Of a stretch of 64,000 nt of DNA, positions 1,837 to 62,385 are shown piece after piece. The position numbers were made by a program, and so were the translations under genes. Within the stretch, counting starts at the first letter, position 1. Every line of letters begins with the position of its first letter. The stretch is taken from the NCBI GenBank assembly GCA_946699065.1, contig CAMPDV010000705.1, positions 115,685 through 179,684 of the forward strand. The letters run 5' to 3'. The notes under the pieces are model-generated. The model was not told where the DNA came from and searched no databases. It saw nothing but the letters and a program-made list of their open reading frames with translations. Origin of the DNA: Loxodes magnus (Eukaryota > Ciliophora > Karyorelictea > Loxodida > Loxodidae).

Positions 1837-2769
1837 TCATTAAACTATTTCTCTCCACTTTCCAATATTCAAATCATAACTATATAATTAACTTGATTAA
1901 CTAAACTAATAAACTTTATTTCTAATTGTAATAGGTTGAGTAGAACAAGGACCGTTCTAAGGAAATTCATCACCTTTCTTAAGAATTGTTTTTAAATCAT
2001 ATAAAAAAGTATCTAAATTAGAATATAAGTTTTTATAGATCAGAAATTACTTTAAATCAGGAATAAATATGGCTGAAGTTGTAGATTTTTCATCCAATTT
2101 ATGTTAACTATCTGTTCATATATTTTGTTAGCAATCATATATTTGAATTATGTCTTTGTATTCACTTTTATTTAATGTAAATCCACCGAAAACGTAAAGT
2201 TTAGAATTGTATTAATCGCATCCAAAGCAATATACTGAATGATTTATTGCTTATATTTCAGTAAAATTTTAAGTTCTAAAGTTAAAAACTTCACATGCTG
2301 GTTAATCTTAAATTTAATCTTTTTCAGAAGAAACTCCTGAAACAATATAAATAAGACTCTTTTAGTTAAAACGTGTTCTATGAAAGAATCTTCTGTTTAT
2401 CATTGAAAAATCTTGAATTTTTTTATTTGTTTCATGGATTATAAATCTTTAAAATAAATTTTCTAAGTCACCTGAAACTACTAAAGTATTATTCTTTATC
2501 TACTCTACTTATAAACTATCGGAACATATTTTTATATTATTTTAATTATTTTCAAATAAGTTTTCATTAATTTTATAGGTTAATTTGGAATCTTTTAAAA
2601 GAGTAGAAATATTATTAATATGAATCAGTTTAATATTGGAACATATTTCATATTTAGTAACTCCTATGCCAAATTTAGCGAATGTTCTATCATTTTAATA
2701 TGATTTAGAGCTCCTAATAAGCTTTCTTAAAAATAGTATTTAAATTAGCTTTTGTTGTGACTCATTCAT
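1837..2769 (-). CDS. Kelch-repeat protein, copy 1
   Basis: An open frame of 310 codons plus a terminal TGA when TAA/TAG are Gln. It starts MNESQQKLIQILFLRKLI, the N-terminus shared by the family. Kelch-type strands are visible, with Leu-Tyr-Val-Phe-Gly-Gly near residue 199 followed by an Ile-Tyr-Asp turn and then codon 218, the usual kelch Trp, which here is TGA (2116-2118). The last strand ends Gly-Lys-Trp-Arg-Glu with Trp as TGG, six codons before the TGA stop. Kelch domains are beta-propeller binding modules; no enzymatic function is implied. The start is fixed by the conserved N-terminus and by the equal length of the 34.3-kb copy (also 933 nt). The conserved downstream block follows on the same strand. 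Confidence 0.8.
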
Positions 2770-2816
2770 TTTATTTTTATAAATATTAAATAAAATTTCC
2801 TTTTTAAACAAAAACC

Positions 2817-2830
2817 ACGTATTTTTACGT
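2817..2830. promoter_or_regulatory. Near-palindromic ACGTA-TACGT box upstream of kelch copy 1
   Basis: The 14-mer ACGTATTTTTACGT lies about 48 bases upstream of the kelch ATG. The same box, same spacing, is upstream of copies at 9.2 kb (9275-9288, one change), 35.2 kb (35260-35273, a perfect palindrome ACGTAAATTTACGT) and 53.5 kb (53537-53550), and in decayed form at 13.39 and 36.53 kb. The other subfamily (20.7, 26.9, 41.0, 62.4 kb) lacks it and has a different conserved leader. Conservation in non-coding DNA suggests a promoter element; this is inference. Confidence 0.45.
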
Positions 2831-3409
2831 TTATTATTAACGAAAAATTAAAGAAAAATTTAGCATTTAAATAATAATTTTTAAAAAAGAAAAAATATAA
2901 TTTTATAAGAAAATAATTGATAAAATAAGTATTTTTGTATTTAATAATCTTTTTAATATTATAAGATGACTTATATCTAGAATCATTAAAGTTAAAAGTA
3001 TAATATATTTTCTTTATATAATAAAAATCCTTAATCTTAAAAAGTGACAAATATTATTTTCATAAATCAAGTTATCAAAAACTAATTTTAATTTTAATTA
3101 CTATTTTGTAATTAATTAGTAACATTAGTATGATATAAATATAAAAGATTATTATAAGCAAATAAATATTTTGTCCTATAGTTATAAGATTTTATAAATT
3201 AACATGATTAAAAGTAAAATTTATAACTATATATTATTAAAATATTGCTTATAAAGTTTAAATAATAAACTATAATTTAATCTTATTTTATATTAAACTT
3301 AATAAAATATACTTAAATAATAAAAAGTATTACATATAAACAAAAATTTATAATCATATTAAGTTTAATTACTTTAATTATAAGATATTATAATTAAAAA
3401 ATTTTTTAT

Positions 3410-7457: not shown

Positions 7458-7466
7458 TTTTTTAAA

Positions 7467-8306: not shown

Positions 8307-9228
8307 TCATTAAACTATTTCTTTCCACTTTCCAATATTCAAATCATATTTAAGCAATTTACTTTGCTAACTAAACTGAAAAACTTATTTTCTAACTGTA
8401 ATAGGTTATGTATAACAGACACAATCTTAAGAAAATTTATCTCCATTCTTAAATATAGTTTTTAAATCTAATAGCAAAGTATCTAAATTGGAATATAAAT
8501 TTCTATATATTAGAAATGACTTTATATCGGGAATAAATTAGGTTGAAGCGGCAACCTATTCATCTAATTTATGTTAACTATCTGTTCATATATTTTGTTA
8601 GCAATCATATATTTGAATTATGTCTTTTTATGTTCTTCTTTTAAAAGTAAATCCACCAAAAACATAAAGTTTAAAATCGTATTAAATACATCCAAAAAAT
8701 TGAACGGGATATTTTATTGGTTATATTTCAGTAAAATTTTAGTTCTTCAAGTTAAATACTTCACATGCTGGCTAATCTTAAGTTTAACCATTTTCAGAAG
8801 AAACTACTGAAACAATATAAATTAGACTTTTTTAGTTAAAATGTGTTCTATGAAGACGTCTTTAGTATTTCATTAAAAGCTCTTAATCTTTTCTAATAGT
8901 TTCATGAATTATAAATCTTTAAAGTAAATTTTCTAAGCCTCCTAAAATTACTAAAGTAGAATTCTTTATCTATTCTAATTATGAATGAAAAGAATGTTGT
9001 CAGTTATTTATTTAATTGATTTCGAAATTACTTTATTTAGTTTTGTAAGTTATTTTAAATGATAGAAATATTATTAATGTAAATCATCTTTAGATTGGAA
9101 ATTATTTCATATTTCGTAACTCCTATACCAAATTTAGCGAATAATCTATCATTCTAGTATTAACATGAATTTCTAATAAGCTTTCTTTAAAATAGTATTT
9201 GAATCAGTTATTTTTGTGACTCACTCAT
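8307..9228 (-). pseudogene. Kelch-repeat gene, copy 2, with indels
   Basis: Same N-terminus (MSESQKQLIQILFQRKL), kelch strands and terminal Trp-Lys-Glu-Ile-Val-Gln-TGA as copy 1. Deletions of about 10 nt in total in the middle move the frame (start to the kelch Trp is 640 nt instead of 651). The kelch Trp codon is TGA at 8586-8588. The box at 9275-9288 lies upstream. Its 3.3-kb surroundings (8.1-9.9 plus 10.7-11.0 kb) duplicate 52.4-54.7 kb. Confidence 0.7.
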
Positions 9229-9959: not shown

Positions 9960-10690
9960 AAGAGAACTTCACAACTAACTGATTCCACTCTCTCTCAAAC
10001 TAAAGGATGGCGTAGAACTTCGTTAGTCCCATCCTTATCTCCCGACCAAAAACAATTTGTTCTCCTAGTTTCTATTTAACTTGTTATTTCTTATTATTTC
10101 TTATTATTTCTTTCAGTTTCATTTTCCTTTCAGCACTATCTTCATCAGTGGTTTTTCTGACATATATAGCACCTGATCTTTCTACGATAGTAATTTATTT
10201 TATTTGTCTCTTATTATTATTAAGGTTCAATTTCCATTGGATGCTTTATTACTAATCTTGAAATTTTTAAACTGCTAGTTGTTATTATTCTTACCTTACT
10301 TAAAGTTCTTTAATTTCATATTAGAATCTAGAGAATTGAAATTATATAATTGAGGAACTTCATCGAATTATTTGCTAATATCTTCAAATTTAGCTACTAT
10401 TGACTCTTAAAGCTTATCAAGAGTTTCTTGTATGGCTACAAATTATAGATCTAGTTATTAAATAAAATTATCTAACATTTTTACTAATTTTTCTACTCTT
10501 AATCTTTGCTGTTTTAGCTTGTATTATATATTTTATATCCTTTGCTGCCCTGATTATGCAAAGGAAACCTAAGATTATTATTCTTAGTCTTGTTAAGATG
10601 ATTATTCGATTAAATTAGTTTGTTATTCTTATTCTTTAAAATATTCGTAAATAAAGATCTATTATTTCTTAGGTGTCATTTTGTTTTATA
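9960..10690 (-). mobile_element. Non-LTR retrotransposon copy, minus orientation
   Basis: The left end carries a 3' hairpin (GGATGGGACTAACGAAGTTCTACGCCATCC on minus). ORF1 runs from 10679 towards about 10000. The 54.3-kb paralogous segment lacks this block, indicating insertion after the duplication. Target duplications are not clear to me. Confidence 0.6.
10000..10679 (-). pseudogene. Retrotransposon ORF1 with zinc knuckle
   Basis: Starts Met-Thr-Pro-Lys-Lys, then a Gln-rich N-terminus and a coiled coil (Leu-Arg-Val-Glu-Lys-Leu-Val-Lys-Met-Leu). After a frame change near 10215 a knuckle reads Cys-Tyr-Ile-Cys-Gln-Lys-Asn-His-TGA-TGA-Arg-Gln-Cys (10132-10171). The two TGA codons occupy the positions that are Leu/Phe and Tyr in sister copies. 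At least one indel, so non-functional as it stands. Confidence 0.55.
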
Positions 10691-12409: not shown

Positions 12410-13341
12410 TCATTTACTATTTCTCTCCACTTTCCCTTATTAAACTCATAACTAAAGAGTAAGTATGATTAACTAAACTGAAACACTTCGTTTCTATTAA
12501 AAACTGGTTGTGTAAAACATGCACCATACTTAGGAAACATTTTTCCATGCTTAAATATATTTTTTAGATCAAATAATAAAGTATCTAAATCAGAGTATAA
12601 GTTTCTATATATAAGAAATTATTTTTAATTAGGAATAAATATGGCTGAGTTTGTAGCTTTTTAATCTAATTTATGCTAATTATCTATTCATATATTTTAT
12701 AAGCAATCATATACTTGAATTGTGTCATTTTATTAATCTAAATTAAATTCAAATCCACCAAAAGCATATAATTATGAATCATATTGATCGCATCCAAAAC
12801 AAAATACTGAATGATTGATAGACTATATCTCGCTAAAAGTATTAGTTCTCAAGTTAAATACTTCACATGCTGGCTAATCTTAAATTTAAGCCTTTTAAGA
12901 AGTAGTTCCTGATATAATATAAATAAGATTCTTTTAGTTAAAACGTGTTCTATGTAAACGTCTTTAGTATTTCATTGTAAACTCTTTATTTTTCTTATTA
13001 GTTTCATAAATCATAAATATTTAAGATCAATTTTCTAAGCCACCTGAAACTACTAAAGTATTATTTTTTATCTACTCTATTTACGAATGATAAGAAAATA
13101 GTTAGATATTTGTTTAATTATTTTCAAATTTTGTTTCATTAATTTTATAGGTTATTTTTATATCTTTTTTAATGGAAGAAATATTATTAATATGAATCAG
13201 CTTAAGATTGGAACATATTTCATATTTAGTAACTCCTATACCAAACTTAGCAAATATTCTATCATTCTAGTATGAATTAGACCTCCTAGTAAGCTTTCTT
13301 AAAAATAGTATTTGAATCAGTTATTTTTGTGACTCACTCAT
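12410..13341 (-). CDS. Kelch-repeat protein, copy 3
   Basis: The frame is open from the conserved ATG through the last kelch strand (Trp codon 305, TGG at 12427-12429). Codon 218 is TGA (12688-12690), exactly 651 nt from the start as in copies 1, 4, 5 and 7. A second TGA falls after Ser-Gly-Gly-Leu-Glu-Asn, where sister copies have Cys or Leu. One T is missing just before the usual stop, so the frame runs on into AT-rich DNA. Otherwise intact. Confidence 0.7.
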
Positions 13342-15121: not shown

Positions 15122-16093
15122 ATATATAATAATAATATTAATTTTAAGTTTTCCGTTTTAGGGATTTCCAACCCCGTCAGGAAGACAGCAGTTCATGCTC
15201 CCTGCTGTTAAATATAAAAGTTCGGGTCGCCCAATTTTAGCGAGATTGGGAACTCAGATTTTTCCAGGTTTTCCCTCCTTTAACTTGCCTTGATTCCATC
15301 TTAATCTTATATTGAACCATCCGGGTTGCAATACATTCTTTTCATTCTTGCTTCTTCTTTTTTCTTCTTTTGTTGTTCTTTTATCCAATAGTTTCTTTAT
15401 TTCTATTAGAATTTCTAACATTTTCGATAAAAATGTCATACGCTTCCACAGCAGAAACATTTCTTTTTTATCTTTTATTATTTTCCTTGATTTGTTTGCT
15501 CTTCCTAGGCTTCGATTTCCATTTGTATAGCTACAGTTTCGCTTTACTCTTTCTTAAAGGTTTACAATTTCTCTTCTACTTTTCCGAGTCTGTTATCCAG
15601 TTCAGTCTGTTTCTAAAGCTAATTTTAGGATTCGTTAGTCTGACTTTGTGAGATATTCCAAAAGGCGTTAAGATCTCTTTCCTAGGACATAAGTCTTGAC
15701 TCAATTCCTTCTGCTAGGTCTAGCTTTGCCATCAGCTTATCATTGTCCTTCTTCAATCTCTTGACATCTTCCTGGAGGTTCAGTACCACTTTGATGAGCT
15801 ACTCCATGCTCATCTGGCCAGAAGGGTTGAACTCTGATACCTCCTGGTGGAGAACAGACTTCATCTGTTTCCTCGGTTTCTTGCTTGAGGTTGGAGTTTC
15901 TGTGTGTATATTCTTCAAGGTTGGCTTTCGTTCGTTTTGTTAGATTCCAAGTTGTTAGTTCAGTGTTGGTTAAGGTTGCGATAGAGAAGATTGTTAAGAT
16001 TATTAAGACTTGGTTTCTTGCTTCCTCCCTTCCTTTTTGGCTTAGGAAGAGGTGGTATAGAAGCCAGACTTGAAACCTTCAACCATTTTTTTA
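15122..16093 (-). mobile_element. Full ORF1-only non-LTR retrotransposon with 18-bp target duplication
   Basis: Flanked by the perfect direct repeat ATTAGTTTTAGGTTTAGT at 15104-15121 and 16094-16111. On the minus strand it starts almost at the ORF1 ATG, encodes a complete ORF1, and ends with two GC-rich hairpins (CAGCAG...CTGCTG and GGGGTTGGAAATCCC) and an (ATT)n tail. GC content is clearly higher than the host. The perfect long target duplication indicates a recent insertion. Confidence 0.85.
15193..16086 (-). CDS. Retrotransposon ORF1 protein (coiled coil, CCHC zinc knuckle), intact
   Basis: 297 codons from ATG (16086) to TGA (15193-15195) in one frame. An N-terminal Ser/Gln-rich basic region is followed by a coiled coil starting MSMEQLIKVVLNLQEDVKRL, a Gln/Glu-rich helix, then Cys-Phe-Cys-Cys-Gly-Ser-Val-TGA-His-Phe-Tyr-Arg-Lys-Cys, a CX2CX4HX4C knuckle with TGA as the residue before His, and a Lys/Gln-rich tail. 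TGG is also used (Ala-Phe-Trp-Asn, Asn-Tyr-Trp-Ile). The N-terminal third may be out of the ancestral frame: the other frame there resembles the 48-kb copy (Glu-Thr-Glu, Asp-Glu-Val-Cys-Ser-Pro-Pro). ORF1 proteins of this type package element RNA. An intact frame in a young insertion makes the internal TGA most easily read as Trp. Confidence 0.75.
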
Positions 16094-16323: not shown

Positions 16324-18073
16324 ATGAAAAAAGAATCCTGGGTTTCAGAAAAAGAAAGTATCAATCAAAGTTAAGAATAATGAACTTCGTAACCGGAAAA
16401 TTTAAAGATATAAAATGAGTATAATAAACTTAAGACAGTTCATAAATGTTAGTATATGAAGAAACGAAGCAAGAAAATAACAAATAAGAAGATATTAAAT
16501 ATTTATAGTTAATATAAGTACATTAGAATGAAGAATAAATTTAACTAAACTAACAACTTTAGTGATAAAATAAAACTATAAATAATTATTAGAAGTTTTG
16601 AACAAATCAATATATACTTGATATGATCTTCATATTTTTGAATAAAAAAGAAATAGCAAAAATACAATAAATAAATAAGTTCTTTAATAACTATAATTTC
16701 AAATTCGAAAACTAGAAATAAAGCAATATAGTACTAACGAGGATTATGTATAAAATAAAGTAAAATGAACCTTAAAATAATTAGAAACTTCTAACATAAA
16801 AACTTTAGTCATTTCATCTATTCCATTATATCAAAACTTAAATCGAAATATTTAAGAAACCTTATAAAGTATTTTTCGAGGTCAAAACGCTAAAGGAAGA
16901 AACAATTTAAAGCAAATATAAGAAATTTAAGTATAATGATAGTCTTTGGAATTTTTATCTACTATAAATGTAAATTTTTAACAAAAAGTAAAGTAAATTA
17001 CTTATACTGGAAAAATCTAAAACGATTAAAATCTAAATTTTCTACAGAATTTTACCAATTTATAGTCATTTAATTTAACTCGTTTAGGAGTTTAGAAATT
17101 TGAGTGATGTTTTCTAATAGATTTTTGTCCAAAATGAAAGTTAAAAGAATTAAAAATACAAAGTAAAGATATAAATTATGATAATATAAAGAGATTTTTA
17201 GAACTAAAAGGAAATGAATTGGAAGAAATTTAAATAAACTGTAATAGATACTTAGATTAATTTATTTAACTATGCACTAACTTAAAGAAAGTTCAAATAT
17301 CAGATAAATTAGATAATATTGTAATAGATCAGCTATTAAAATCTAACCTTACAAGCTTAAATTTTTAATTTTCTAATTTTTCAAGTTAAAACTTTTAGAA
17401 AATATCGTCTTAATTATGAAAGGATCTTAAACATTTAAAAATAGAAAAATGCAAATATTTTAACAATTAGAATCTGATTATTTTATTGTAAAACTGTCCT
17501 AACTTAATGAGTATAAAATTATTTAAGCTTTCATTACTAACAAGTGAAGCTCTTTAATAAACAGGAGATTTTGGATAAAATTATGAATAAATATATTTAA
17601 GTTAACTAAGGTAAATAACAAACTAAGCATTAAAGTATATATTTCTAAAATGTAAAAAACTAAAGGATATTACTCTTTAGGTTATAAAATTTTAGAGTCT
17701 TAAAGTACTTTAAGAAATCCGTGAAAATAGTTAAAATCTAGAGAGATTTGAAATATAATTTTGTAATTTTTAAGATAAAAATTGAATTTAAGAAATTATA
17801 ACTTTATAGCATCTAAAAGAATTAATTTTGATTAATCGTAAATTAAACGATAGTGATACTGTCCAAATTGTATAAAAAATTGCAATAAATTACGATAACT
17901 AAATATAAGCTAAAACTAAATTTATGAATCAGGTTTACTTATTAAAAATTAATAAGATTAAATATATCCATTTTGAAGTAACTTAGAGTTTTAAATGCAG
18001 GATAACATCGATTAAAGAATAATAGATTACAAGTTTGGGATAAGAGTTTAAGAAATTAACAATAATAAAATGA
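16324..18073 (+). CDS. Leucine-rich-repeat protein A (one frameshift)
   Basis: Starts MKKESWVSEKESINQSQEQ. The frame shifts once near 16600-16625, then stays in one frame to TGA 18071-18073 (about 580 codons). The C-terminal two thirds are irregular LRRs of the FBXL/AMN1 type: units such as Leu-Lys-His-Leu-Lys-Ile-Glu-Lys-Cys, Leu-Leu-Gln-Asn-Cys-Pro-Asn-Leu, Cys-Lys-Lys-Leu-Lys-Asp-Ile. It aligns over its whole length with gene B at 46.2-47.9 kb at roughly 35-45% identity by eye, and four in-frame TGAs are at the same alignment positions in both (16766, 16937, 17417, 17783). LRRs form protein-binding solenoids; the N-terminus is not recognised as an F-box. The single indel may be sequencing or early decay. 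Confidence 0.75.
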
Positions 18074-20331: not shown

Positions 20332-21900
20332 AATGGAGAAAGCAAAAAAGGAAGAAGCTAAAGATGAGTAGAAAGTAGGATTTTAAAGAAAAATGATTAG
20401 ATAAAGACAAGATTAAAAAACAATTTACAAATATTTACTAATGTCTATAATTGAAAGATGAAATCTTGCAATAAAAAAGTCTAAAATTTCTTTAGTTTAA
20501 ATTTAACTTAATAAATATTCTTCAAATTTTAAGATAAATTAGGCTAATAAAGTTAAAAAGATTAATTTAATTAAAAAAATACTTACTAAATAAAATTTTT
20601 CTATTATACATTTATTTTAATTTATGCTGCCATATTTAAAATAATTATTATTTTAAAGGGAAATTCTATCTAATAATTATAAAAAAAATGATAGAGTCAC
20701 AAAAATAACTGATTCAAATATTATTTTTAAGAAAGCTTATTAGAAGTTCTCATTAATACTAGAAGGATAAAATATTCGCTAAGTTTGGCATAGGGGTTAT
20801 GAAATATGAAATTTGTTCCAATCTTAAGATGATTCATTTTCATAATATTTCTACCATTAAAAATGATTACAAATTAACCTATAAAATTAATGAAAATAAT
20901 TTCGAAAGCAATTAAATAAATATCTAACTGACACCTTATTGTTCATAAATAGAGTAATTAAGTGATAATAAATTAATAATATCAGGAGGTTTATAAAATT
21001 GCTCTTTAAAATTTTTAATCCATGAAACAAATAAAAAAGATTAAGAGTTTTCAATGAAATACTAAAGACATTTTCATAGAACAAACTTTAACAAAAAGCA
21101 TCTTATTTATATTGTTTCAGGAATAAAATCTGAAAATGATTAAACTTAATATTAACCAGCATGTGAAGTATTTAACTTGAGGAATTAAAGTTTTACTGAA
21201 ATATAGTCAATAAATCATTCAGTACATTTTTTTGGATGTGATTAATATAATTCTAAACTTTATATTTTCGGTGGACTTAATTTTTAAGACAAATAGTTAA
21301 AAGACATTATTCAAATATATGATTGCTAATAAAACACATGGTAAAATAGCTAACTTAAATTGGATAAAGAGGCTACGACTTCAGCCTCATTTATTCCTCT
21401 TTTAAAGTCATTTCTGATCTATAGAAACTTATTTTTTAATTTTGATACTTTTTTATATGATTTAAAAACAATTCTTAAGAATGGAGATATATTTCCTAAA
21501 GGTGATGTCTGCTTTACATAACCTATTACGGAAAGAAATAAAGTTTTTCAGTTTAGTTAATCAAGTAAATTATTTAGTTATGATTTGAATATTGGAAAGT
21601 GGAGAGAAATAGTTAATGAGTAAACTTAAAACTAAAAAATATAATTAAATTTACTTAAATTAAATATTTTAATACTTTATTTTAGTTTAAAGCATATAAA
21701 TTACTTTCATTATTTTTATTTAGTTGCTAACACATATTCTTTAAATTATTTATATCTTCTTTCATATATTTTTTTATTACTTATTTAATAAAAGAGTATT
21801 TAGTCTCAAATGTTCTAACTTAAGAAAATTTTAAAATAAAAAACAAGTTTATTATTTAATAAAAAAGAAATTAAGAATAATAAAAGTAAAAAATTAATTT
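19970..21900. repeat. Arm of inverted repeat with 39.86-41.72 kb
   Basis: Kelch copy 4, its leader and the upstream RT fragment recur in reverse at 39.86-41.72 kb. An anchor pair is CTTAAGGCGTCTTATAC at 20202-20218 and its complement at 41449-41465. The arms are about 18 kb apart and diverged by substitutions and small indels. Confidence 0.75.
20688..21634 (+). CDS. Kelch-repeat protein, copy 4 (fully open, TGG at the kelch Trp)
   Basis: Open from MIESQKQLIQILFLRKLI through the last strand (Gly-Lys-Trp-Arg-Glu-Ile-Val) with no TGA at all. At codon 218 it has TGG (21339-21341) where nine sisters have TGA, which identifies the residue as Trp. Kelch Gly-Gly pairs are visible near residues 101 and 202. 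One T is missing before the usual stop, so the ORF continues as Asn-Glu-Gln into an AT-rich tail; the annotated end is the homologous stop site. The leader (GCTGCCATATTTAAAATAAT near 20627) is shared with copies 5, 9 and 11. It lies in an inverted repeat with copy 9. Confidence 0.8.
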
Positions 21901-22899: not shown

Positions 22900-23640
22900 T
22901 TTTATCTATTTATATTTAATATAAATTTTTATAGTTAATATTGAAAAATATAGAATGAAGAATTATTGCAACTTTACTAGTAACTTTAGCAATAAATAAA
23001 GCTTTATTAATAGAATTTTTGAACAAATAAAAAGAAAAACTATATGAAATTATAATATTTAAGAAGAAAGAGAAATAAAAAGTATAAAAATTAAATAAGT
23101 TCTTTTAAAGATTTAATTTAAAGACGAAAAGTTAGAAATAAAGAGATAAAATATTAAAAAAATATATTTAAAATAAAATATAGGTAAAATAATTAGCAGC
23201 TTAAACACTAAAATTTTAGAATAAATAATAAATAAAATAAATAATAATGTAGTAAAAAACTATTATTAACTAATAGATTTACATATCTTTAAATACCATA
23301 CTTAAATAATTAACCTAAATTTATAAATAATTAAGTATTTTGCATTTAAAGGAAAAATATTATAAAATGATAAAAAATAAGAAAAATTAACTGATTTTTT
23401 AGCATTTTATAAAACTAATAAGAAATTATCTATAACATTAAAACAACAGAATATTTATAAAATTTGTATTAGGACTTATTAAATATGAATTTTATTCTAA
23501 TCTAAAGAATTTTAATTTTAAAAAGATTATAACATTTAAAAGAATTCTGATTCTAAAATAGCTTACAATATTTTTATCTAAACCAAAGATAAATTTTTAT
23601 TAATCATTTTTTTCTCATAAATAGAATATTTTAATATTAG
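22900..23640 (+). pseudogene. Decayed leucine-rich-repeat gene C
   Basis: Translated pieces (Tyr-Arg-Met-Lys-Asn, Phe-Glu-Gln-Ile, Lys-Leu-Glu-Ile-Lys-Arg) match the N-terminal part of LRR gene A (Tyr-Ile-Arg-Met-Lys-Asn, Phe-Glu-Gln-Ile, Lys-Leu-Glu-Ile-Lys). The rest loses the LRR pattern and is very A-rich. No intact frame. Confidence 0.45.
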
Positions 23641-24625
23641 TACTTTACTTTAAAAAGGTCATTGGAATATAATTCTTATTGATTTATTTTCCATAAAACT
23701 TGTAAAAAACTTAATGAATTTCAAAATAAAATAAAATATATAATCATAAAGCAAATTTCAATTAATTAAATTAAATTATCATTATTTTTAATTTTTATAA
23801 TAGAAATAATTTAATTAAAAATTACTTGGAATTTGAAATTAAAAAACATATAGTATAAGTGAAGTTAACCATTAAACTATTCAGTGTATATTATTTAGCA
23901 TTTATTATAAAATGTAAAGTTTATTAATTGTGGTACCTTTCCATTTTAAGGAAATTGCTACTAAAAAATATATATAAGCTTTCTATTTTTAAACAAACTA
24001 ATTAAGTGCAAAATAAGTTAGTTGAAAAGCAAATAATTTTAACTTGATTTATTCCTTAAATTTAGTTATATTTCATAAAAAGAAAGTATTTTTAAATTTT
24101 ATATTTTTAGCTTGATTTAAAGTAGATAATTAAATTTAGATATTTATGCTATGTTTAGCTTGTTTGGTTAAAAACATAATGTATTAATTGATAACTGTAG
24201 TTATTTATTTAAATATAAAATAAGTTATATTTTATGGAGAGAACTTTTGCAAGCAGATTTAAATAAAATAATTACTTTAAATAAATAAAAAATTAGATTA
24301 ATATTTCTAATTTCATATTAATATATTAAGTAAATCTATTAATCTTAGAAATTTATCCAGTATTTTATATATTTCATATTATCATCTTTAACTTACAATT
24401 ATTAAAATTACAAGGGGATCTTATATAATTTTTTAATATTTTATCTAACTGAAAATCTTATATTTTAATTACAATAGTTAGAAGAAATAAAATTATAAAC
24501 AATAATAAAGTTTAAATTTAGAATTTCTAGAATTTTTTCTGTCTAAATTATTTTATAAATCTATCTGTTTTATTAAAAACCCTAATTGATCGCATTGAAT
24601 TTTGTTAAGCTGATTAAACAATGTA

Positions 24626-26904: not shown

Positions 26905-27834
26905 ATGAGTGAGTCACAAAAATAACTGATTCAAATATTATTTTTAAGAAAGCTTATTAGAAACTCTCATTAATACTATAGTGATAGATTATTCGCTAAG
27001 TTTGGACTAGGGGTTATGAAATATGAAATAAGTTCCAATCTTAAGATAATTCATTTTCATAATATTTCTACCATTAAAAATAATTCCAAATTAACCTATA
27101 AAATTAATAAAAATAATTTCGAAAGCAATTAAATAAATATCTAACTGACACCTTATTGTTCATAAATAGAGTAGTTAAATAATAATAAATTAATAATATC
27201 AGGTGGTTCTAAAGATTTATCTTAAAGATTCATGATTCATGAAGAAAATTAAAATAATAAAGAGTTTTCAATGAAATATTAAAGGCGTTTTCATAGAACA
27301 AACTTTAACAAAAAACATCTTATTTATATTATTTCAGGAATTTAATCTGAAAAAGATTAAAATTAAGATTAACCAGCATGTGAAGTTTTTAACTTTAGAA
27401 CTTAAAGTTTTACTGAATTATAACCAATAAATCATTCAGTTTAATGTTTTGGATGCGATTAATACAATTCTAAGCTTTACGTTTTCGGTGGATTTAATTT
27501 AAAATAAGATAAATTAAAAGACATAATTCAAGTATATGATTGCTAACAAAATATATGAACAAATAGTTAACTTAAGTTAGATAAGCAGGCTATGACATCA
27601 GCCTCATTTATTCCTCTTTTAAAGTCATTTCTGATATATAGAAACTTTTTTTCTAATTTTGATACTTTTTTATATGATTTAAAAACAATTCTTAAGAATG
27701 GAGATATATTTCCTAAAGGTAGCGCCTGCTTTACATAACCTATTTCAGGTAGAAATAAAGTTTTTCAGTTTAGTTAATAAAGCTAATTATTTATTTATGA
27801 TTTGAATATTGGAAAGTGGAGAGAAATAGTTAAT
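26905..27834 (+). CDS. Kelch-repeat protein, copy 5
   Basis: Open for more than 305 codons from MSESQKQLIQILFLRKLIR. The only internal TGA is codon 218 (27556-27558), in Gln-Gln-Asn-Ile-TGA-Thr-Asn-Ser, the kelch Trp. A preceding Lys-Leu-Tyr-Val-Phe-Gly-Gly strand is intact, and the last strand uses TGG. As in copy 4, the terminal stop is shifted out of frame by a missing T; the end given is the homologous position. Partner of copy 11 in the large inverted repeat, but in better shape. Confidence 0.78.
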
Positions 27835-28139
27835 GAGTAAACTTAAAACTAAAAAATATAATTAAATTTACATAAATTAAATACTTTAATACTTTATTTT
27901 AGTTTAAAACATAATCAACTTTTATTATTTTTTAGTTACTAGCATTTATTCTCTATAATATTTTATATTTATTTTATATATCTTTTTTTTATGGCTTTTT
28001 TAATTAAAAAGAAACTATTCTTAAATATTGAATTAAAAAAATAAACTAGTTATTGTCATAGGAAAGAAAATATTTAGATTAAAAAAATAAAATAGAATGA
28101 TTATCTTTCTATTTATAAGTAAAAAATCTAAATTTAACA

Positions 28140-32403: not shown

Positions 32404-32830
32404 AATGAATGAGTCACAAAAATAACTGACTCAAATATTATTTTTAAGAAAGTTTAATAGGAACTCTTTTAATACTATAATGATAGAATATTTGCAAAGT
32501 TTGGTATAGGAGTAATTAAGTTTGAAATATGTTCCAATCTCAAACTGTCTCAAATTAAAAATATTTCTACCATTTAGAAAAATTCTAGAATAACCTATAA
32601 AGTTAATAAAAATTAATTTGAAAATCATTAAAAAATTATCTAACATACATCTATCTGTTCATAAATAGAGTAGATAATTATAATATTTTAATAGTATCAG
32701 GCGGTATGGATAATTAATCTAATGATTTATTATTCATGGAAAAATAAAAAACAAGGAGTTTTTAATGATAAGTAAAAGATATCTTCATAGAACACGATTT
32801 AACTAAGAGATTCTTATTTATATTTTATCA
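32404..32830 (+). pseudogene. Kelch-repeat gene, copy 6, truncated
   Basis: Begins MNESQKQLTQILFLRKFNR and follows the family to about codon 140 (His-Arg-Thr-Arg-Phe), then homology stops abruptly and gives way to unique GC-richer DNA. The C-terminal kelch strands are absent. Confidence 0.7.
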
Positions 32831-35273: not shown

Positions 35274-35579
35274 TTATTAATAATAAAATATGTTGAAAAA
35301 ATGAAAATGAAAATTATATATTTTAAAAAAAGAAAACACATTTTAAAATAAATTTGTTAAATAAAAAAGCTCTTTAAGTATTATTATTTGTATTTAATAG
35401 CACTTTCAAATTAATAAGAACACTTTGTTTAAGAAATAATAACGTATGAAGTAACAATATAGTGAATGAAGCTAATAATAAATATATTGTAATAATTTAG
35501 ATGTTTTAATTAGAACAAAGTTATAATAATATATAATTTATTTAAGCTAATTTTTTATTTTTCTAGTTTTGAGTTTACT

Positions 35580-36482
35580 TGTCAAATATTTTCTTCCATT
35601 TTCCTATATTCAAATCATTAATAAATAAATTACTAGTTTAACCTAACTAATAATTTCGTTTCTACTTAAAGCGGATTGAATAAAGCAGAAACTACCTTGA
35701 GGAAATATTTCTACATGCTTTAAAATAATTTTTTATTCAATTATAAAAGTTGAAATCTAGAATTCAGTTTCTAAATATAAGAAAGACTTTAGCAAGGAAT
35801 AAATATGGAATATGTCACAATTTTTTAATCTAATTTAAGTAAACTTTCTGTTCACATATATTATTAAATCTCATATATTTAAATTATATCTTTCTTTGAT
35901 AATCTTTAAGGGAACTTCCACCTAAAACTTAAAGCTTGGATTTATAATAAACACATCCAATTTCAAGCACTGAAAAGTTTATTGATTGTATTTCAACTAA
36001 AGTAAGCCCTCAATTTAAAAATTTCGCAACTAGGAATATCTCAATTTTAGTCAAATCAGAAAAAGATCCTGATATTTTAATTTTAAAACTTATTCTATGA
36101 TAGATTCTTTTGTTTATCATTGAAATATTTAATTTTTTTAATTATTTCATGTATCAAAATTTTTTTAGTTGGGCCTACGGTCCCATCTGAAGTTATTAAT
36201 GTATATTATTTATCAACTCAGGTTATGAAAAAAAAAGCTACTGTTAGATATTTATTTAGTTTCTTTAAAAATTATTTATTTAGCTTTATAGGTTATTTTA
36301 GACCATTCTAAATAGTAAAAACTTTATTAACATAAATTTACTTAAGAGATTATATTTTTTTTTCATATTTAATGACTCCTATTCAAATTTAGCGAACATT
36401 ATTTCATTTTAGCATTAAAGAGAGTTTCTAATAAACTTTCTTAAAAATAATAAATAAATAATTTATTTTGGGACTGATTCAT
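35580..36482 (-). pseudogene. Kelch-repeat gene, copy 8, strongly decayed
   Basis: Same start region (MNQSQNKL) and same order of blocks, but many indels. Codon equivalent 218 is TGA (ATG-TGA-ACA-GAA). Lies head-to-tail directly upstream of copy 7 on the same strand, about 370 bp apart, so these two form the only close tandem pair. Confidence 0.65.
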
Positions 36483-36729
36483 TTATTTTTATACTTGTAT
36501 ATAAAATTAGCTTTTTAAACAAAATACATGTAAATTTAAATTTATTACTAATAAAAATTGTAAATAATTGATTTATTAAAAAATTATAATATTTTAAAGA
36601 TTAATACAAACTTAAAATAAATATTTATCAGAAGTAATTCATTAATTTAAGTTATCTTAAATATTACTTTTTAACTTTTATAAGCGAATTTTATTTTGGG
36701 TTTAAAGAAATATCATTATTAAGTTTTTA

Positions 36730-39366: not shown

Positions 39367-40050
39367 TTAAGCTTTTGAAATTTATTTTTAAATAATTTTT
39401 TTTATTTTATTTTTTCTAAAATTATTTAATCACATTTTTACAATCATTCTACATCCAAAATTGCATTATATTTAATCTTTCAAATTAATTTTTTAAATAT
39501 TCTTTTAATATTTTTATTTACTAAAGTTCTTTTCCTTTATAAAATTAGTTTATTTTGACAATAAAGTTATTTACTCTATTGCATTTAAAAATCTTTTTAT
39601 TTATTTATATGTCTTTCTTCAAAGATTTAGATATTTTCCGTTTTTCTCACTTCATACAGTTCAAAAATAGTTTTTTTAATTCAAGATAGTACTATTTACT
39701 CAACTTTTTAATTTTCTTCATTCATCAGCAAAATTTATACTTTTTATTAAATTCAGATTTTTTATTTATAACTAGAAAGATAATCATTCTATTTTATTTT
39801 TTTAATCTAAATATTTTCTTTCCTATGACAATAACCTAGTTTATTTTTTTTCTAATTCGAACGCTTGAGATTAATTTCTTTTTATTAAATAAGCAATAAA
39901 AAAAAAATATAAAATAAATTTAAAATATTATAGAGAATGAATGCTAGTAACTAAAAAATAATAAAAGTTGATTATGTTTTAAACTAAAATAAAGTATTAA
40001 AGTATTTAATTTAAGTAAATTTAATTATATTTTTTAGTTTAAGTTTGCTC

Positions 40051-40979
40051 ATTAACTATTTCTCTCCACTTTCCAATATTCAAATCATAAATAAATAATT
40101 AGCTTTATTAACTAAACTGAAAAATTTTATTTCAATCTGTAATAGGTTATGTAAAGCAGACTCCAATTTTAGGAAATATATTTCCATTCTTAAGAATTGT
40201 TTTTAAATCATATAAAAAAGTATCAAAACTAAAAAATAAGTTTCTATAGATCAGAAATGACTTTAAAAGAGCAATAAATGAGGATGAAGTCATAGCCTCT
40301 TTATCCAATTTAAGTTAACTATTTGTTCATATATTTTGTTAGCAATCATATACTTGAATTATGTCTTTTAATTTATCTTATTTTAAATTAAATCCACCGA
40401 AAACATAAAGCTTAGAATTGCATTAATCGCATCCAAAACATTAAACTGAATGATTTATTGGTTATATTTCAGTAAAACTTTAAGTTCTAAAGTTAAATAC
40501 TTCACATGTTAGTTAATCTTAATTTTAATTATTTTCAGATGACCTCCCTGAAATAATATAAATAAGATGTTTTTTGTTAAAGTTTGTTCTATGAAAATTT
40601 CTTTAATGTTTCATTGAAAACTATTAATCTTTTTTATTTGTTTCATGAATCATGAATCTTTAAGATAAATCTTTAGAACCACTTGATATTATTAATTTAT
40701 TATTATTTAACTACTCTATTTATGAAAACTAAAGTGTCAGTTAGATATTTATTTATTTGCTTTCGAAATTATTTTCATTAATTTTATAGGTTATTTTAGA
40801 ATTTTTTTAATGGTAGAAATATTATGAAAATGAATCATCTTAAGATTGGAACTTATTTCATATTTCATAACCCCTAGTCCAAACTTAGCGAATAATCTAT
40901 CACTATAGTATTATCGAGAGCTTCTAATAAGCTTTCTTAAAAATAATATTTGAATCAATTATTTTTATGACTCACTCGT
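40051..40979 (-). pseudogene. Kelch-repeat gene, copy 9, start lost
   Basis: The conserved ATG is ACG (40977-40979 on minus) and there is a one-base difference before the kelch Trp (TGA at 40327-40329). Otherwise close to copy 4, its partner in the inverted repeat. Likely non-functional unless ACG initiation is used. Confidence 0.65.
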
Positions 40980-46244: not shown

Positions 46245-47900
46245 TCACTGATTCTATTGCCTAAAGTTATCAATTTTCTAAGATTCTTATAAATTACATA
46301 GATGATTATACTAATCAACTATTGGAAATCCTTTATCAGTTAGATCTTCATTAAAGCATAAATTTAAGCAACGCAGTTTATGAGAATTTTGTAGAATTAA
46401 AACGCAATCTTCATCTTATAAGTAACATCTAATTTGAAACAATTCTTTTAATAATTTTATATTTGCAATATTTTAAATTCAGTTACTTTATTCTATTTTA
46501 CAATTAAACATTATGAATTTCTCAAGCTTTTAGCAATTCTACTAAATTACTTATAAAGTATTGTATTATAAGTCTTCAAAATACGTTAGTGATATTTATT
46601 TTAATTGCTTGCAATTTTCAAATATTAAATCCAAAATCTTACTTTCTATTTATTTTATTTTTCCAATATAAATTTCTTCATATTTCATTCCATATTTACC
46701 TATTTTTTATAAGGACACAGATGTAATTTAAGGAAGATTAAATAATTTCAGTGATATTAATTTAGGTGAATTTTATAACAGAAGACTAAAACTATGATCA
46801 TCAAGAAATTCACATTAACTAATCTCAAATTTTTGCAGACTATTTCATTGCTATTTAAAAAGTGATTAAAACTCTTATTTTTAGATTTCAGTACCTTCTA
46901 TTTTTAGATGATGTAAATCCTATATTTTAACTTTATCTAAATTAAAATTTTTTCCCATGTTTGAGATTTATAGTTTCTTTATTTTGGGACATAAGTCAAT
47001 AAATGATTACTAATTATTATTAATTTCAATTTCTTCTATTAAATTACCCTTTTATGCTAGGTAATTTTTAATAATCTCTTAATTTATGTTATTACTTTCT
47101 ATTTTTAACGTTTTTAAATTTAAGTTTATACAATATTTTACTAAAAACTTACCTGTGATTTAGATATCTAAAAGTAAACTGAATATTTCAAGATGCTCTA
47201 AATTTTCTAATTTTGAGAGAAAACTTAAATCATTTTTATTTGTATCTGCTATATTTAATGTTAGTTATTTAACTTTCTAACTAGTTTAAGGGCTCAATAA
47301 ATCCAAATATTCTAAAGGTCAGTATAGCAACTATATTTCTAGTTATTTTAATTTATTTTCTATTTCTTAATCAAAGTTCTTTTCTAAAAACGATTAAACT
47401 CTTTTCATTTAAGTTTGCTTTAAAAGATTTCCTGAAATCAATAACTTTTTAATATTTGAGATTTCTAATTATTTTAAAACTCACTCTATTTTGTTTTGCA
47501 CATAATGTTTATCTTAATTATATTTTTTTATTTCTAATTTATTAAATTTATATGTATACTTATTAAAGTATTTATTCACTTACTAAAGAATGCCTATTTC
47601 GTGATTTTTTAAGAATGGGACTATTAAATCTAGAGTATATTAACTTTATCAAATTTTTAATTATATAGTTTTATATTTCTTGGTATGATTCTGCTCTTCA
47701 AATAAATGTTCTATTTCTTAATCTTATCTTTTTCTTATACTTATTTCTAAGTTGTTTTCTTGTTTTTAAGTTTCTTATTTTATTGCATAATTAGGAGATT
47801 AATAATTTGTTGTTGTTTGATCTTCTTTGATAAGTTAATTTGATTTTTAAAGCTTATGCCTACTTTAATCTTCTTTTTAGTGTTCGATATCTTTTTACAT
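46245..47900 (-). CDS. Leucine-rich-repeat protein B (single 551-codon frame)
   Basis: Starts MQKDIEHQKEDQSRHKLQK at 47900 and stays in one frame to TGA 46245-46247 with no indel. Irregular LRRs of the FBXL/AMN1 type run from about residue 120 to 530 (Leu-Lys-Gln-Leu-Glu-Ile-Ser-Asn-Ile-Lys; Phe-Glu-Asn-Cys-Lys-Gln-Leu-Lys-Gln-Ile-Ser-Leu; Asn-Cys-Gln-Lys-Leu-Glu-Lys-Phe). Internal TGA codons are at 84, 140, 194, 352 and 474; the last four coincide with TGAs in gene A. The Gln-rich N-terminal 80 residues are not recognised. The stop is assigned to the TGA after the last LRR-like unit; the frame is open beyond it, so the end is less sure than the start. Likely a binding scaffold. Confidence 0.75.
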
Positions 47901-47999: not shown

Positions 48000-48845
48000 T
48001 AGCATACTAAATAAATTTGAGTAACCAAGACTTAATAATCTCCTCTATCTTAATCCATACTATACTAACAACCTGGAATTTAAAAAGAAGAGCAGAAGTA
48101 AGTATTGAAGACAGTCCATATATATACTCCAATCTCAGCTGAGAAACCGAGAAAGCAGATGAAGTCTGCTCTCCACCAGTTGGCCAGATGAGCATGGAAT
48201 AGCTAATTAGAGTAGTGCTAAACTTCAAGGAAGAGGTTAGGAAACTCAAGAAAGATAATGACAAATAATTGAAAAGCTTGACCTAGCCGAATGAATAGAG
48301 TCAAGACTTATGTCTAAAGAACGAGAACTGAGTGCTTTCTGGAACATATCGTAGGATTAAACTAGCTAATCCCAGAATTAGCATTAAAAACAGACTGATT
48401 TGGATAACAAACTTGAGAGACTAGAAGAGAAACTAAATGAGCAGAAAGGCGACTAAATGCTGATTGAAGAAATTGAAGAAGACCAAACCAATCAAGGTTG
48501 TAAAAAGATGCTATTATTGCAACTAAGAGGAGCACTTGTGAAGAAAATGCAAGGAATTCCTGAATTTCAAGAACCGATACTGGGAAAAATAGAGAAAGCA
48601 ATAAGCACTGAAAATAAAGGCTAGACAATTGCAGCAGAGGAGAATAAATGAAAGACTATGAATTACGGAATTTGAATCATTTACAAGAAGAAACTTTCGG
48701 GGAACGGAAGATGGAACTAGCGATAAAAAGATCAAATATCAAATGGGGGAGAGGAGAAACTTTTAAACTTTTTGACTTAATCCCGGAGCGATCCAGTAAT
48801 CGGCGGGAAGAGGTGAAATTCCTCCAAGATCGCCAAACTTAATAT
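48000..48845 (+). mobile_element. Non-LTR retrotransposon copy with decayed ORF1
   Basis: GC-richer island. The ORF1 signature MSMEQLIRVVLNFKEEVRKL starts at 48188. Frame changes near 48290 and 48500 are needed to reach Cys-Tyr-Tyr-Cys-Asn-Gln-Glu-Glu-His-Leu-TGA-Arg-Lys-Cys and a basic tail ending at TGA 48659-48661. In the tail, Arg-Tyr-Trp uses TGG where the 6.7-kb copy has TGA. The 3' end has the hairpin GGCGGGAAGAGGTGAAATTCCTCC around 48800-48830. The target duplication is not identified. Confidence 0.65.
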
Positions 48846-52559: not shown

Positions 52560-53489
52560 TGTTAATCATTTCTCTCCATTTTCCAATACTCAAATCATAA
52601 CTATATAGTTAACATAATTCACTAAACGTATAAACTTTATTTCTAACTGTAATTGGTTACGTATAACAGATTCCTTATTCAGGAAATATATCTCCATTCT
52701 TAAGAATTGTTTTTAAATCAAATAAAAAAGTATCAAATCTAGAATATAAGTTTCTATATATTAGAAATGACTTTATATCAGGAATAAATTAAGCTGAAGT
52801 CATAGATTTTTCTTCTAATTTATGTTAACTATCTGTTCATATATTTTATTAGCAATCATATACTTGAATTATATCTTTTGATTCTTTTTAATTAAAAGAA
52901 AATCCACCAAAAATATAAAGCTTAGAATCGTTTACATCACATCCAAAAAATTGAACTGGATAATTTATTGGTTATATTTAAGTAAAACTTTAAGTTCTCA
53001 AGTTAAAAACTTCACATGCTGGTTAATCTTTAGTTTAATCCTTTTCAGATGAAACTCCTGAAACAATATAAACTAGATTCTTTTAATTAAAACGTGTTTT
53101 ATGAAGACGCCTTTAGTATTTCATTACAAACTCTTAATCTTTTTTATTAGTTTCATGGATTAAAAATCTTTAGATTCAATTTTCTAAGCCACCTGAAACT
53201 ACTAAAGTATTATTCTTTATCTACTCTATTTATGAATTATAAGAACTTTTTTGGATATTAATTTAATGGCTTTCAAATAAGTTTTCATTAATTTTATAGG
53301 TTATTTTATAACCATTTTTAATGGTAGAAATACTATTAATATGAATTAGCTTAAGATTAGAACATATTTCATATTTCATAACCCCTATGCCAAACTTAGC
53401 GAATATTCTATCATTCTATTATTGTTGCGAATTTCTAATGAGCTTCTTAAAAATAGTATTTGAACCAGTTATTTTTGCGATTCATTCAT
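52560..53489 (-). pseudogene. Kelch-repeat gene, copy 10, one early indel
   Basis: Starts MNESQKQLVQILFLR, then one T is missing after about 15 codons, shifting the frame. The rest aligns with the family. Kelch Trp codon TGA at 52837-52839, final Trp TGG. The usual stop is lost (AAC-AAG). The box ACGTATTTTTACGT is at 53537-53550. The surroundings duplicate those of copy 2. Confidence 0.65.
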
Positions 53490-56349: not shown

Positions 56350-56514
56350 CTGAAAAGCCAAAGCTAAATTACAAAATAAAGCTTTAAAATTTGATAAGTT
56401 TTATAAAATAAAAAGAGTGTACAATGAATTTATATAAGAGAGGCTTAGTTAATTATAAATATTTAAAGTTATGAGATAATTATGTTTAAATTAGTTTAGT
56501 TATAAGTAAATTAA

Positions 56515-58634: not shown

Positions 58635-59004
58635 GACTTTAACTTTTATGTCTATAAATCTTATTCGTAAAGTTGATATAATGCTCACTAAATTTTAAAT
58701 AAATAATTTAAAGGAATGTATAAAAATTTAAATAAACTATTTTTTAAATAATTTCATTTCTAAAAGAGTAAAAATTATAAATTTTATACATTCTTTAGTT
58801 TTAAGTATTACGTCAACTTATATTAGATTTATTTATCTTTTTAATATCAAAATAAAAATAAATGTATATTATGCTTTATTTATCATTTACTTATAATTAG
58901 ATTAAAAGTGAAATAAATAAAAAGAAAAGTTTTTATTAAGAGTTTTTATATTCATAATGTTTTAATTACTTTAAATAAAGCGTTACTTATTAATCATTAT
59001 GATG

Positions 59005-60456
59005 TCAACCTTTGTTTAATTCGTTAATTTCAATTATTTTTCCTTTATTTAAAAAAATTAAATAATATTTGGAAAATGCTTTTTGTGAGTCTATTAATGG
59101 GAAATATTCTTTAAATATGTTTGATTATTATTATTACAAAATAAATGTAAAAAAAGATTTATCATTCTCTAGGATCTCAACCAGTTACTTACTGTCTTTT
59201 GCTTAACGAGGATGGATACATCATTTTTCTTGATTAAGGAGAAGTTAGCCACTGTTGATTCTTAGTATGTTAAGCAAATATTTTTCTCTTATAAATTCCT
59301 TTTGATATAATCCATAGCTATTTAATCTAAGCTCATGTTCTTTTTTGTTCTTTTTAGTTAAATTTTATTCAAGTTATGCATTTCCTTAATAAATGAAATA
59401 TAGACTTACAGTGTCAGAAATTTTTTAGTTGTATCTAATTATCTTTTTATAAATATCTTGTTTTCTATCTTTTCAAAACTTTTAATTATATTCTTATTTT
59501 AAATTTCTAATTCTGGAATTTGATCTTTTTTTATTAAAGTTGGAGTTTTTTTCCAATTCCACTATTTTATTATTGGGCAAGTTTGATTAAGATTATCTTC
59601 ATAATTGTTCTTTCGTTAATAATTGATTTTATATTGTTTATTTTCTTAAAATCGTTGGATCATTATCCTGAAAATCAATACTGCTCCTAAGATCTCTTAT
59701 TTATATACTTTGATTAAATATATTTTCTTAGTATAGGGAAATTTATTTATTCCTTTTTCCGATTTAGTTTTAGAGTTTTTAATATATGTCATTTTTTTAT
59801 TCTTCTACTTATTACATTCCAACCATCACTTTACCTTGGAAATAAGAGTTAAATTCTGATGTAATCATCTATTTTTATTTTTCTTTGCCTGTATTCCTCT
59901 CGGCTTTTCTATTTTAGTTTCTAGAAAGGCACATCGACTATTCTTTTTTATCACTCAATTTTCTATTTTTTTTTATATGTTTGGTTATAAATCCTTATAA
60001 TAAATTTAGTAACGAAAATAGTTATAATCTTTTGAAAATATTTCTTAAAAATAAAAAGAACATCATTTTATATCTATTTGCGTTAAGCTTAGTTCTCACT
60101 TTCCTGTTATAGATTTGTTTTAAAGATCTTTAATTATTTCTGAAATATCTCATTCTTTTGACTTTATCATAATTTCCTCAAGATTTAAAATAAAATTTCC
60201 AATTATTAGATGCATGTTTTCTCTAGTAGCTCTATCCTTTTTTAGTTAAAGCAATGCTGTTATTACTTTATGCTTTAATTTAACAAAATGAAGAAACTAT
60301 TTGAGATTTACCTTTTGATAAACAATTTCAGCTTATAAACTTTTTTGCTTCATAAGGATTAGATCTTAAAAAATGTTAGCTATATTAATTCTAAATGCTG
60401 CTATAGTTTAAAATTATCCTAAAATCATAAAAGCATAATCTTATACTTTTAATCAT
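59005..60456 (-). CDS. Unknown 483-residue protein, single frame
   Basis: One frame from MIKSIRLCFYDFRIILNYSS (60456) to TGA 59005-59007, with no indel and five internal TGAs at codons 43, 93, 286, 328 and 412 (Ile-Ser-TGA-Asn-Cys, Lys-Ser-TGA-Gly-Asn, Gln-Leu-TGA-Arg-Gln, Lys-Phe-TGA-Lys-Asp, Glu-Lys-TGA-Cys-Ile-His). TGG is also used (Asn-Asn-Trp-Lys). The C-terminal half looks most protein-like (His-Glu-Leu-Arg-Leu-Asn-Ser-Tyr-Gly-Leu; Leu-Val-Glu-Ile-Leu-Glu-Asn-Asp). Another frame is also fairly open in the first half, so the N-terminus is less certain. Convergent with the RING gene, 370 bp apart. No family recognised. Confidence 0.5.
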
Positions 60457-61450
60457 TTTTGTCGTTACTTAGATGAAATTAGTTCTACAAATCTTCTTCT
60501 CACTTTTTATTTTAAAGTTAGTTAATTCTTGAAAAACTTTTGTCTCAATTATTTATTTAACTTGCTACTGAATAGGTTTTTTATAAGTTTTTTACATCAA
60601 ATATTCAATAGGATGCATAACATAGTGAAAAAAATCAATTATCATTTCTATGATACATTATTGTTTTCAAATTTGATTTAAATTCTTAATTTTTTGTTTT
60701 TTTTCAACTCAAAAACATCTTAAAACTCTTTTCGATCTGCTAGATCGAATTACAATTATAAAATTTCTTTTATTTAAGCTTTTAAAATTTATTTTTATAT
60801 TAAATTTTTATTTTATCTATTTTTAAATTTATTTAATTACATTTTTTTCAATCATTCTACATCAAATATTGCAATTATATTCCTGCTTTTAAATAATTTT
60901 TTTAATATTTTTTAATTTTTATTATTTACTTAAGTTATTTTTCTTTAGTTTATTTTGAAAATAAAATTAATTACTCTATTAAATTTAAAATCTTTTTATT
61001 TACTTATATGTCTTTCTTCTAAGAATTAGCATATTATCCGTTTTTCTCGCTTCATATAGTTCAAAAATAAATTTTTTAATTCAAAATAGTACTGTTTACT
61101 CAATATTTTAAATTTTCTACACTCATCAGCGAAATTTATACTTTTTATTAAATCCAGATTTTTATTATAAATAGAAAGATAATAATTCTATTTTATTTTT
61201 TTAATCTAAATATTTTCTTTTCTATGACAATAACCTAATTTATTTATTTTTTTAAATTCAATACGTGAGAATAATTTTCTTTTTGTTAAATAAGCAAAAA
61301 AAATTTGAAAGAAGATATAAATAATATATAGAATATGAGTTAATAAATATATAAAAATAATGAAAGTAATTTATATGTTTTAAACTAAAATAAAGTATTA
61401 AAGTATTTAATTTATTTAAATTTAATTATATTTTTTAGTTTTAAGTTTAC

Positions 61451-62385
61451 TCATTAACTATTTCTCTCCACTTTCCAATATTCAAATCATAACTAAATAA
61501 TTTACTTGATTAACTAAACTGAAAAACTTTATTTCTATCTGTAATAGGTTATGTAAAGCAGACACCCATTTAAGGAAATTTATCTCCATTCTTAAGAATT
61601 GTTTTTAAATCATATAAAAAAGTATCAAGCAAATTAAAAAATAAGTTTCTATAGATCAGAAATGACTTTAAAAGAGGAATAAATGAAGCTGAAGTCGCAG
61701 CCTCTTTATCCAATTTAAGTTAGCTATTTTACCATGTGTTTTATTAGCAATCATATATTTGAATAATGTCTTTTAACTATTTGTCTTAAAGATTAAGTCC
61801 ACCGAAAATATAAAGTTTAGAATTATATTAATCACATCCAAAACAATGTATTGAATTATTGATTGGTTATATTTCAGTAAAACTTTAAGATCTCAAGTTA
61901 AATACTTCACAAGTTGGTTAATCTTAATTTTAATTATTTTCAGATTAAATTCCTGAAATAATATAAATAAGATGCTTTTTGTTAAAGTTTGTTCTATGAA
62001 AATGTCTTTAGTATTTCATTGAAAACTCTTAATCTTTTTTATTTGTTTCATGGATTAAAAATTTTAAAGAGCAATTTTATAAACCTCCTGATATTATTAA
62101 TTTATTATTATTCAACTACTCTATTTATGAACAATTAGGTGTCAGTTATATATTCATTAAATTTCTTTCGAAATTATTTTCATTAATTTTATAGGTTATT
62201 TTATAATCATTTTTAATGGTAGTAATATTATGAAAATGAATCATCTTAAGATTGGAACAAATTTCATATTTCATAACCCCTATACCAAACTTAGCGAATA
62301 TTCTATCCTTCTAGTATTAATGAGAACTTCTTATAATCTTTCTTAAAAATAGTATTTGAATCAGTTATTTTTGTGACTCACTCAT
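61451..62385 (-). pseudogene. Kelch-repeat gene, copy 11, with small indels
   Basis: Same start (MSESQKQLIQILFLRKI) and strands. The distance from start to kelch Trp is one nt short, and the stop is shifted by the missing T. The kelch Trp codon is TGG (61733-61735), as in copy 4, within the same Asn-Thr-Trp-Gln-Asn-Ser context. Partner of copy 5 by position in the inverted repeat but closer to copy 4 at this codon, hinting at gene conversion. Confidence 0.65.

Follow-up and report, generated by a model that had tools for sequence, protein, structure and literature searches.

A clustered kelch-repeat gene family of Loxodes magnus with a conserved tryptophan codon that occurs as TGA or TGG

In the current analysis of a 64-kb stretch of Loxodes magnus DNA (contig CAMPDV010000705.1, positions 115,685 to 179,684; hereafter the window, numbered from its first letter) we have identified a family of kelch-repeat genes in which codon 218, a conserved tryptophan position, is occupied by either TGA or TGG. 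The window, with a guanine plus cytosine content of 14-28% in 2-kb steps, harbours eleven copies of a gene of about 310 codons (k1 to k11) at the positions given by an initial annotation, and a twelfth, very degenerate remnant. On the basis of sequence comparisons, we are highly confident that an ambiguous genetic code underlies these observations. The window would represent macronuclear DNA of the karyorelict ciliate L. magnus, with UAA and UAG (UAR) read as glutamine, and UGA specifying Trp within coding sequence and signalling termination close to the mRNA 3' end. The kelch genes would encode proteins of about 310 amino acids in many clustered copies. Codon 218 would most likely have been TGA in the ancestor of the family and have changed silently to TGG, probably also back. 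The ambiguous use of UGA is itself already known and published for L. magnus. What is new here is the kelch family only, with its clustered copies, some of them decaying, and with 33 of 50 copies having no TGA within 10 codons past the Trp at codon 305.

The assignment to the kelch family is based on Pfam profiles. All three copies tested (k1, k4 and k11) score above the curated cut-offs for Kelch_1 and Kelch_6, k11 reaching 41.9 bits with Kelch_6 and 37.4 bits with Kelch_1. Compared with known kelch-repeat proteins the family in the window is shorter and only few blades are recognisable. A comparison of k11 with a large protein collection gave no homologues at E <= 0.001, and no pattern match was found in contig collections of viruses and prokaryotes, from which records of the own genome were possibly excluded. 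Codon 218 had been proposed in the initial annotation to be the conserved Trp of a kelch blade and is found to sit on a profile column that strongly prefers Trp. Twenty versions of the k1 protein, one for every residue at the TGA, were scored against kelch-type Pfam models. Trp is the top-scoring residue in all eight listed models that cover codon 218, as exemplified by Kelch_1 (30.2 bits, against 25.4 for Phe, the next best) and Kelch_FKB95 (33.5 bits, against 28.0 for Tyr). With Trp in place Kelch_6, Kelch_1 and Kelch_2 score above their curated cut-offs and the other five covering models below. Kelch_3, the ninth model listed, has its best match at residues 292-308, away from codon 218.

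Further copies have been identified in the whole assembly (705,730,643 bp in 7843 contigs) by exact matches to a 26-nucleotide (nt) pattern lying just 5' of codon 218. There are 48 matches on eight contigs, of which 8 belong to the window and 40 lie outside it, the latter representing 34 distinct sequences. Addition of k3 and k8, which lack the exact pattern, gives a set of 50 copies that is biased to copies keeping the pattern and includes contigs that look near-duplicate. The contigs concerned (C705, C802, C1125, C1627, C4918, C6807, C422 and C64) mostly carry the copies in dense clusters. Identical copies occur on several contigs, in the manner of haplotypes or duplicated arrays. At codon 218, 27 of the 50 copies have TGA and 23 have TGG, and TGT or TGC occurs in none. 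In a quick tree of the 42 different rows, calculated with codons 218 and 305 omitted, the state of codon 218 requires 3 changes, hence at least three, against 16.2 with shuffled labels. The deep rows carry TGA, and some TGA rows are nested in the TGG clade.

The coding sequence beyond the TGA has retained the marks of selection. The comparison covered nine window copies, all but the k6 fragment and the degenerate k8, and the neutral expectation was simulated 300 times with substitution rates taken from the downstream flank of the kelch repeat. The ratio of nonsynonymous to synonymous substitution rates (dN/dS) is 0.435 over codons 219-309 (neutral 0.95 +/- 0.14) and 0.488 over codons 1-217 (neutral 0.89 +/- 0.09), values as low as these being reached in none of the 300 simulations in either case. 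Codons 219-308 contain a single 3-nt gap and no frameshift, and codon 309 has a gap of 1 nt. In the 3' flank there are 8 distinct gaps in 50 columns, 5 of them not multiples of three, and in the 5' flank 2 distinct gaps in 42 columns. Codons 1-217 have 4 gaps, three of which shift the frame (k2, k9 and k10). The repeat region 3' of the kelch gene is rich in insertions and deletions, and no frame in it looked conserved on inspection. Among the older TGA-bearing rows of the tree, the omega-like ratio calculated from unique changes past codon 218 is 0.53 with 9 rows and 0.50 with 8 rows; 2000 neutral draws gave a P printed as 0.0000. The purifying selection and the frame kept past the TGA among older copies argue that this stretch is translated.

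The reading of UAR as Gln is evident from the kelch alignment, in which 643 TAA, 116 TAG, 196 CAA and 34 CAG codons are interchanged in 21 Gln columns over the 50 copies. Genes for the release factor eRF1 provide independent instances of both UAR and UGA. A search of the genome gave three matches, two of which, close relatives about 35 kb apart on contig C196 (L049 and L050), were read to the end. Both have 436 codons with 20-21 TAR codons, 4 TGG codons, no internal TGA and a terminal TGA, and three codons past it another TGA in frame. The reading that ends at the TGA gives what we take to be the normal C terminus of eRF1. As both genes end in TGA, UGA acts as a stop in eRF1, in line with the assignment made in the initial annotation, which had also proposed the Gln and Trp meanings now upheld by the interchanges, the kelch profiles, the selection past the TGA and the TGAs common to a second gene pair.

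This pair comprises two putative F-box/LRR-like paralogues (LRR, leucine-rich repeat). G1 (46390..47668, reverse strand) has 425 codons with five TGAs (47649, 47481, 47319, 46845 and 46479) and no TGG, and G2 (16697..17872, forward strand) has 392 codons with six TGAs and no TGG. They share a sequence identity of 38% over 439 aligned residues. The G2 TGAs at 16766, 17417 and 17783 align with TGAs of G1, while those at 16937, 17105 and 17135 do not. Three TGA columns are thus common to the two genes, out of 4 in G1 and 6 in G2 over 393 aligned columns, with a hypergeometric P of 8e-6 (3e-5 with wider margins). The Pfam matches of both are to LRR only and fall below the cut-off, and the F-box label is a putative one from a reading of the sequence. 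G2 is frameshifted near its N terminus, and G1 may have a frameshift near its C terminus. UGA would therefore have a dual meaning, as a stop in eRF1 and as Trp in the LRR pair and the kelch genes.

Of the window copies, k1 (1837..2769, reverse strand) and k7 (34281..35213, reverse strand) are, as had been annotated, both 933 nt long and end in TGA (TAA TGA at the 3' end), with codon 218 (2116-2118 and 34560-34562) as the sole internal TGA. TGA is also found at codon 218 of k3 (12410..13341, reverse strand; 12688-12690), which has a further TGA at codon 105, and of k5 (26905..27836, forward strand; 27556-27558). TGG occupies the position in k4 (20688..21619, forward strand; 21339-21341), which has no in-frame TGA stop nearby, and in k11 (61450..62385, reverse strand; 61732-61734), which has an in-frame 3-nt insertion 3' of codon 218. 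The codons were re-read, and the spacing of 651 nt from ATG to codon 218 is exact in k1, k3, k4, k5, k7 and k11.

The remaining copies are damaged. An 11-nt deletion shifts the frame of k2 (8307..9228, reverse strand), which has TGA at codon 218 (8586-8588) and at codon 80 and ends in TAA TGA. The start codon of k9 (40049..40977, reverse strand) is ACG; this copy has a 1-nt deletion and TGA at codons 218 (40327-40329) and 283. A 1-nt deletion near codon 15 is found in k10 (52560..53489, reverse strand), with TGA at codons 218 (52837-52839) and 105. The degenerate and frameshifted k8 (35575..36490, reverse strand) has TGA in the column of codon 218 (35852-35854) and at codons 154 and 248. The frameshifted N-terminal fragment k6 (32405..32830, forward strand) has a TGA at codon 108 and ends before codon 218, and no convincing C-terminal piece of it was found beside these positions. 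In the twelfth remnant (about 23317..24250, forward strand) the state of the Trp column is uncertain. The TGG state had been annotated for two copies, which holds for k4 and k11; the TGA state had been annotated for nine and is found in eight (k1, k2, k3, k5, k7, k8, k9 and k10), because k6 stops short of the codon. TGA at codon 105 recurs in the larger set (k3, k10, L009, L012, L018, L019, L021, L025, L030, L034, L040, L044 and L048). In several other window copies the codon there is one for Leu or Cys, and the TGA copies would have Trp at this place if UGA is Trp.

The end of the gene presents a mixed picture. Codon 305 is TGG in every one of the 50 copies and is unchanged throughout the tree. 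At nine other purine-ending codons with a majority of G the numbers of changes are 2, 0, 6, 2, 5, 2, 6, 5 and 2, so that the constancy of codon 305 is unexceptional, since one of these nine also never changed. The initial annotation had related this Trp to a depletion of sense UGA before the stop, with which codon 305 is consistent while not being significant alone. It had also placed the Trp six codons before the stop as TGG in every copy. TGG is indeed present in all ten window copies that have the codon, and a TGA six codons on is present in k1, k2 and k7 only. The seven other window copies meet their next in-frame TGA 20 to 130 codons past codon 305. A TGA at most 10 codons past Trp 305 occurs in 17 of the 50 copies, and all of these have TGA at codon 218. 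Some of the 33 copies without it are open for more than 130 codons onward, and an in-frame TAA or TAG lies 5 to 12 codons past Trp 305 in all 50.

The near terminal TGA is thus found in none of the 23 TGG copies as against 17 of the 27 TGA copies, and in the simplest reading of the tree both origins of TGG fall in lineages without it. These observations raise the idea of a dependence of the internal UGA on the terminal one, such that after loss of the terminal UGA an internal sense UGA is no longer tolerated and codon 218 changes to TGG. This is considered quite unlikely. Shared ancestry explains the association equally well, there being only about 3 changes, and 10 TGA copies also have no terminal UGA.

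A number of observations weigh against an ambiguous code and have to be considered together. In-frame TGAs off the Trp sites occur, mostly in damaged copies, and amount to four in the nine window copies without k6 and k8 (codon 80 of k2, codon 105 of k3 and k10, codon 283 of k9). Frameshifts are present in several kelch copies and in G2, and 9 of the 40 copies from elsewhere in the genome have an uncompensated frameshift past codon 218. The omega-like ratios of the k10 clade (1.02 and 1.12) look neutral, those of the k1 clade (0.77 and 0.76) do not reach significance, and in the TGG clade constraint is seen 5' of codon 218 (0.58) and none 3' of it (0.91). The 33 copies without a near terminal TGA, 10 with TGA and 23 with TGG at codon 218, would be odd if UGA is the sole stop. 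Three of the six TGAs of G2 are unpartnered, as is one of four in the stretch of G1 that aligns, and sense UGA is absent from eRF1. The simplest account of the TGAs at non-Trp codons is mutation, and loss of the stop may explain the kelch copies without a nearby TGA. The kelch family has been under selection and some recent copies are decaying.

Were UGA a stop only, the copies would be pseudogenes derived from one ancestor with a nonsense codon at position 218. The frameshifts and further TGAs, the relaxed appearance of some recent duplicates and the terminal TGA missing in many copies are in keeping with this. It is nevertheless extremely improbable, as the older copies keep both selection and frame past the TGA, codon 218 has undergone three or more switches between TGA and TGG, G1 and G2 have common TGAs at 38% identity, and the published L. 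magnus genome reads UGA as Trp. In Euplotes UGA is read as Cys, a precedent for UGA specifying a residue other than Trp, for example Cys or selenocysteine. In the present genes such a reading is barely credible, since codon 218 is only TGA or TGG, with TGT or TGC in none of the 50 copies, and Kelch_1 favours Trp over Cys by 5.7 bits. Removal of the TGA by splicing is rejected, as the TGG copies keep codon 218 in place without gaps.

A code of the Condylostoma type (NCBI table 28), in which UAA would also be a stop and would end the kelch copies that have no TGA, could account for those 33 copies by means of the in-frame TAA or TAG present in all 50. The chance of it is very small. Of the deep lineages, k1, k2, k7, L009 and L033 end in TGA (k3, k8, L012 and L034 do not), eRF1 terminates at TGA, the copies without TGA may have lost their stop, and passages of the L. 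magnus genome paper name UGA as the sole stop (PMC11441545). Germline DNA of Tetrahymena with dead transposon-borne genes was the origin considered first, and the TGAs shared by G1 and G2 speak against it. A 15-nt sequence that we take to be the Tetrahymena breakage sequence was not found with up to 2 mismatches in the 64-kb window, a result of little weight from one window.

The ambiguous code preferred here agrees with the code described for karyorelict ciliates. Karyorelicts are stated in passages of the genome study to use NCBI table 27, with UGA as the sole stop and also Trp, and with sense UGA depleted in about 20 codons before the stop; L. magnus introns are given there a mode of 17 bp, 93% being at most 25 bp, and the macronuclear assembly a size of 706 Mbp (PMC11441545). 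An excerpt of a 2026 paper states, citing other work, that Loxodes has a tRNA-Trp(CCA) with a 4-bp anticodon stem (PMC13092985). The present genes resemble table 27 (Loxodes, Parduczia), with Gln for UAR and, for UGA, Trp internally and termination at the gene end, and no difference in code was found; in table 27 the stop is selected by closeness to the poly(A) tail. The choice of Trp codon differs within this genome, G1 and G2 together having 11 TGA and no TGG as against TGG at four of four Trp codons in each eRF1 gene. In Condylostoma magnum (table 28) UAR is Gln and UGA is Trp with context-dependent stops, according to a part of the published description (PMC4967479). UAA and UAG are also stops there, whereas only UGA is seen as a stop in the eRF1 genes here.

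Other elements have also been identified in the window. Four decayed Gag-like retroelement fragments with coiled coil and zinc knuckle lie at 6200-6850, 9960-10800, 15150-16100 and 48020-48660. TGA occurs two residues past the His of the zinc knuckle at 48509..48550 (forward strand), as TGA TGA immediately past the His of a zinc-knuckle-like stretch at 10133..10171 (reverse strand), and just before the His, with Phe-Tyr after it, at 15418..15459 (reverse strand). In a by-eye alignment three of the four zinc-knuckle stretches thus have TGA at or beside positions that are Phe or Tyr elsewhere, which is only suggestive with regard to the reading of the codon.

A RING/B-box-like coding region at 56476-58625 (forward strand) has Pfam matches below the cut-off, in-frame TGAs and a change of frame around 57550-57650. 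Four candidate GT-AG introns of 17, 20, 35 and 38 nt, none of them proven, would restore the frame, the 17-nt one being at 57548-57564. An inverted duplication of about 1.4 kb (25218-26608 and 62609-64000, 99-100% identical) adjoins k5 and k11, and a GC-richer repeat of about 0.3 kb is present in three copies about 80% identical (13440-13757, 39049-39366 and 44335-44601). No tRNA was detected in the window by ARAGORN in its bacterial-code mode, and no Rfam family at gathering score.

The use of one codon both for Trp and as stop is among the most striking departures from the standard code, to which the window adds a multicopy gene with a conserved Trp codon that switches between TGA and TGG. 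The kelch family could serve to measure the limit that distance from the stop sets on sense UGA. If the linkage of codon 218 with the terminal UGA is true, the family would constitute a natural record of selection arising from context-dependent termination.

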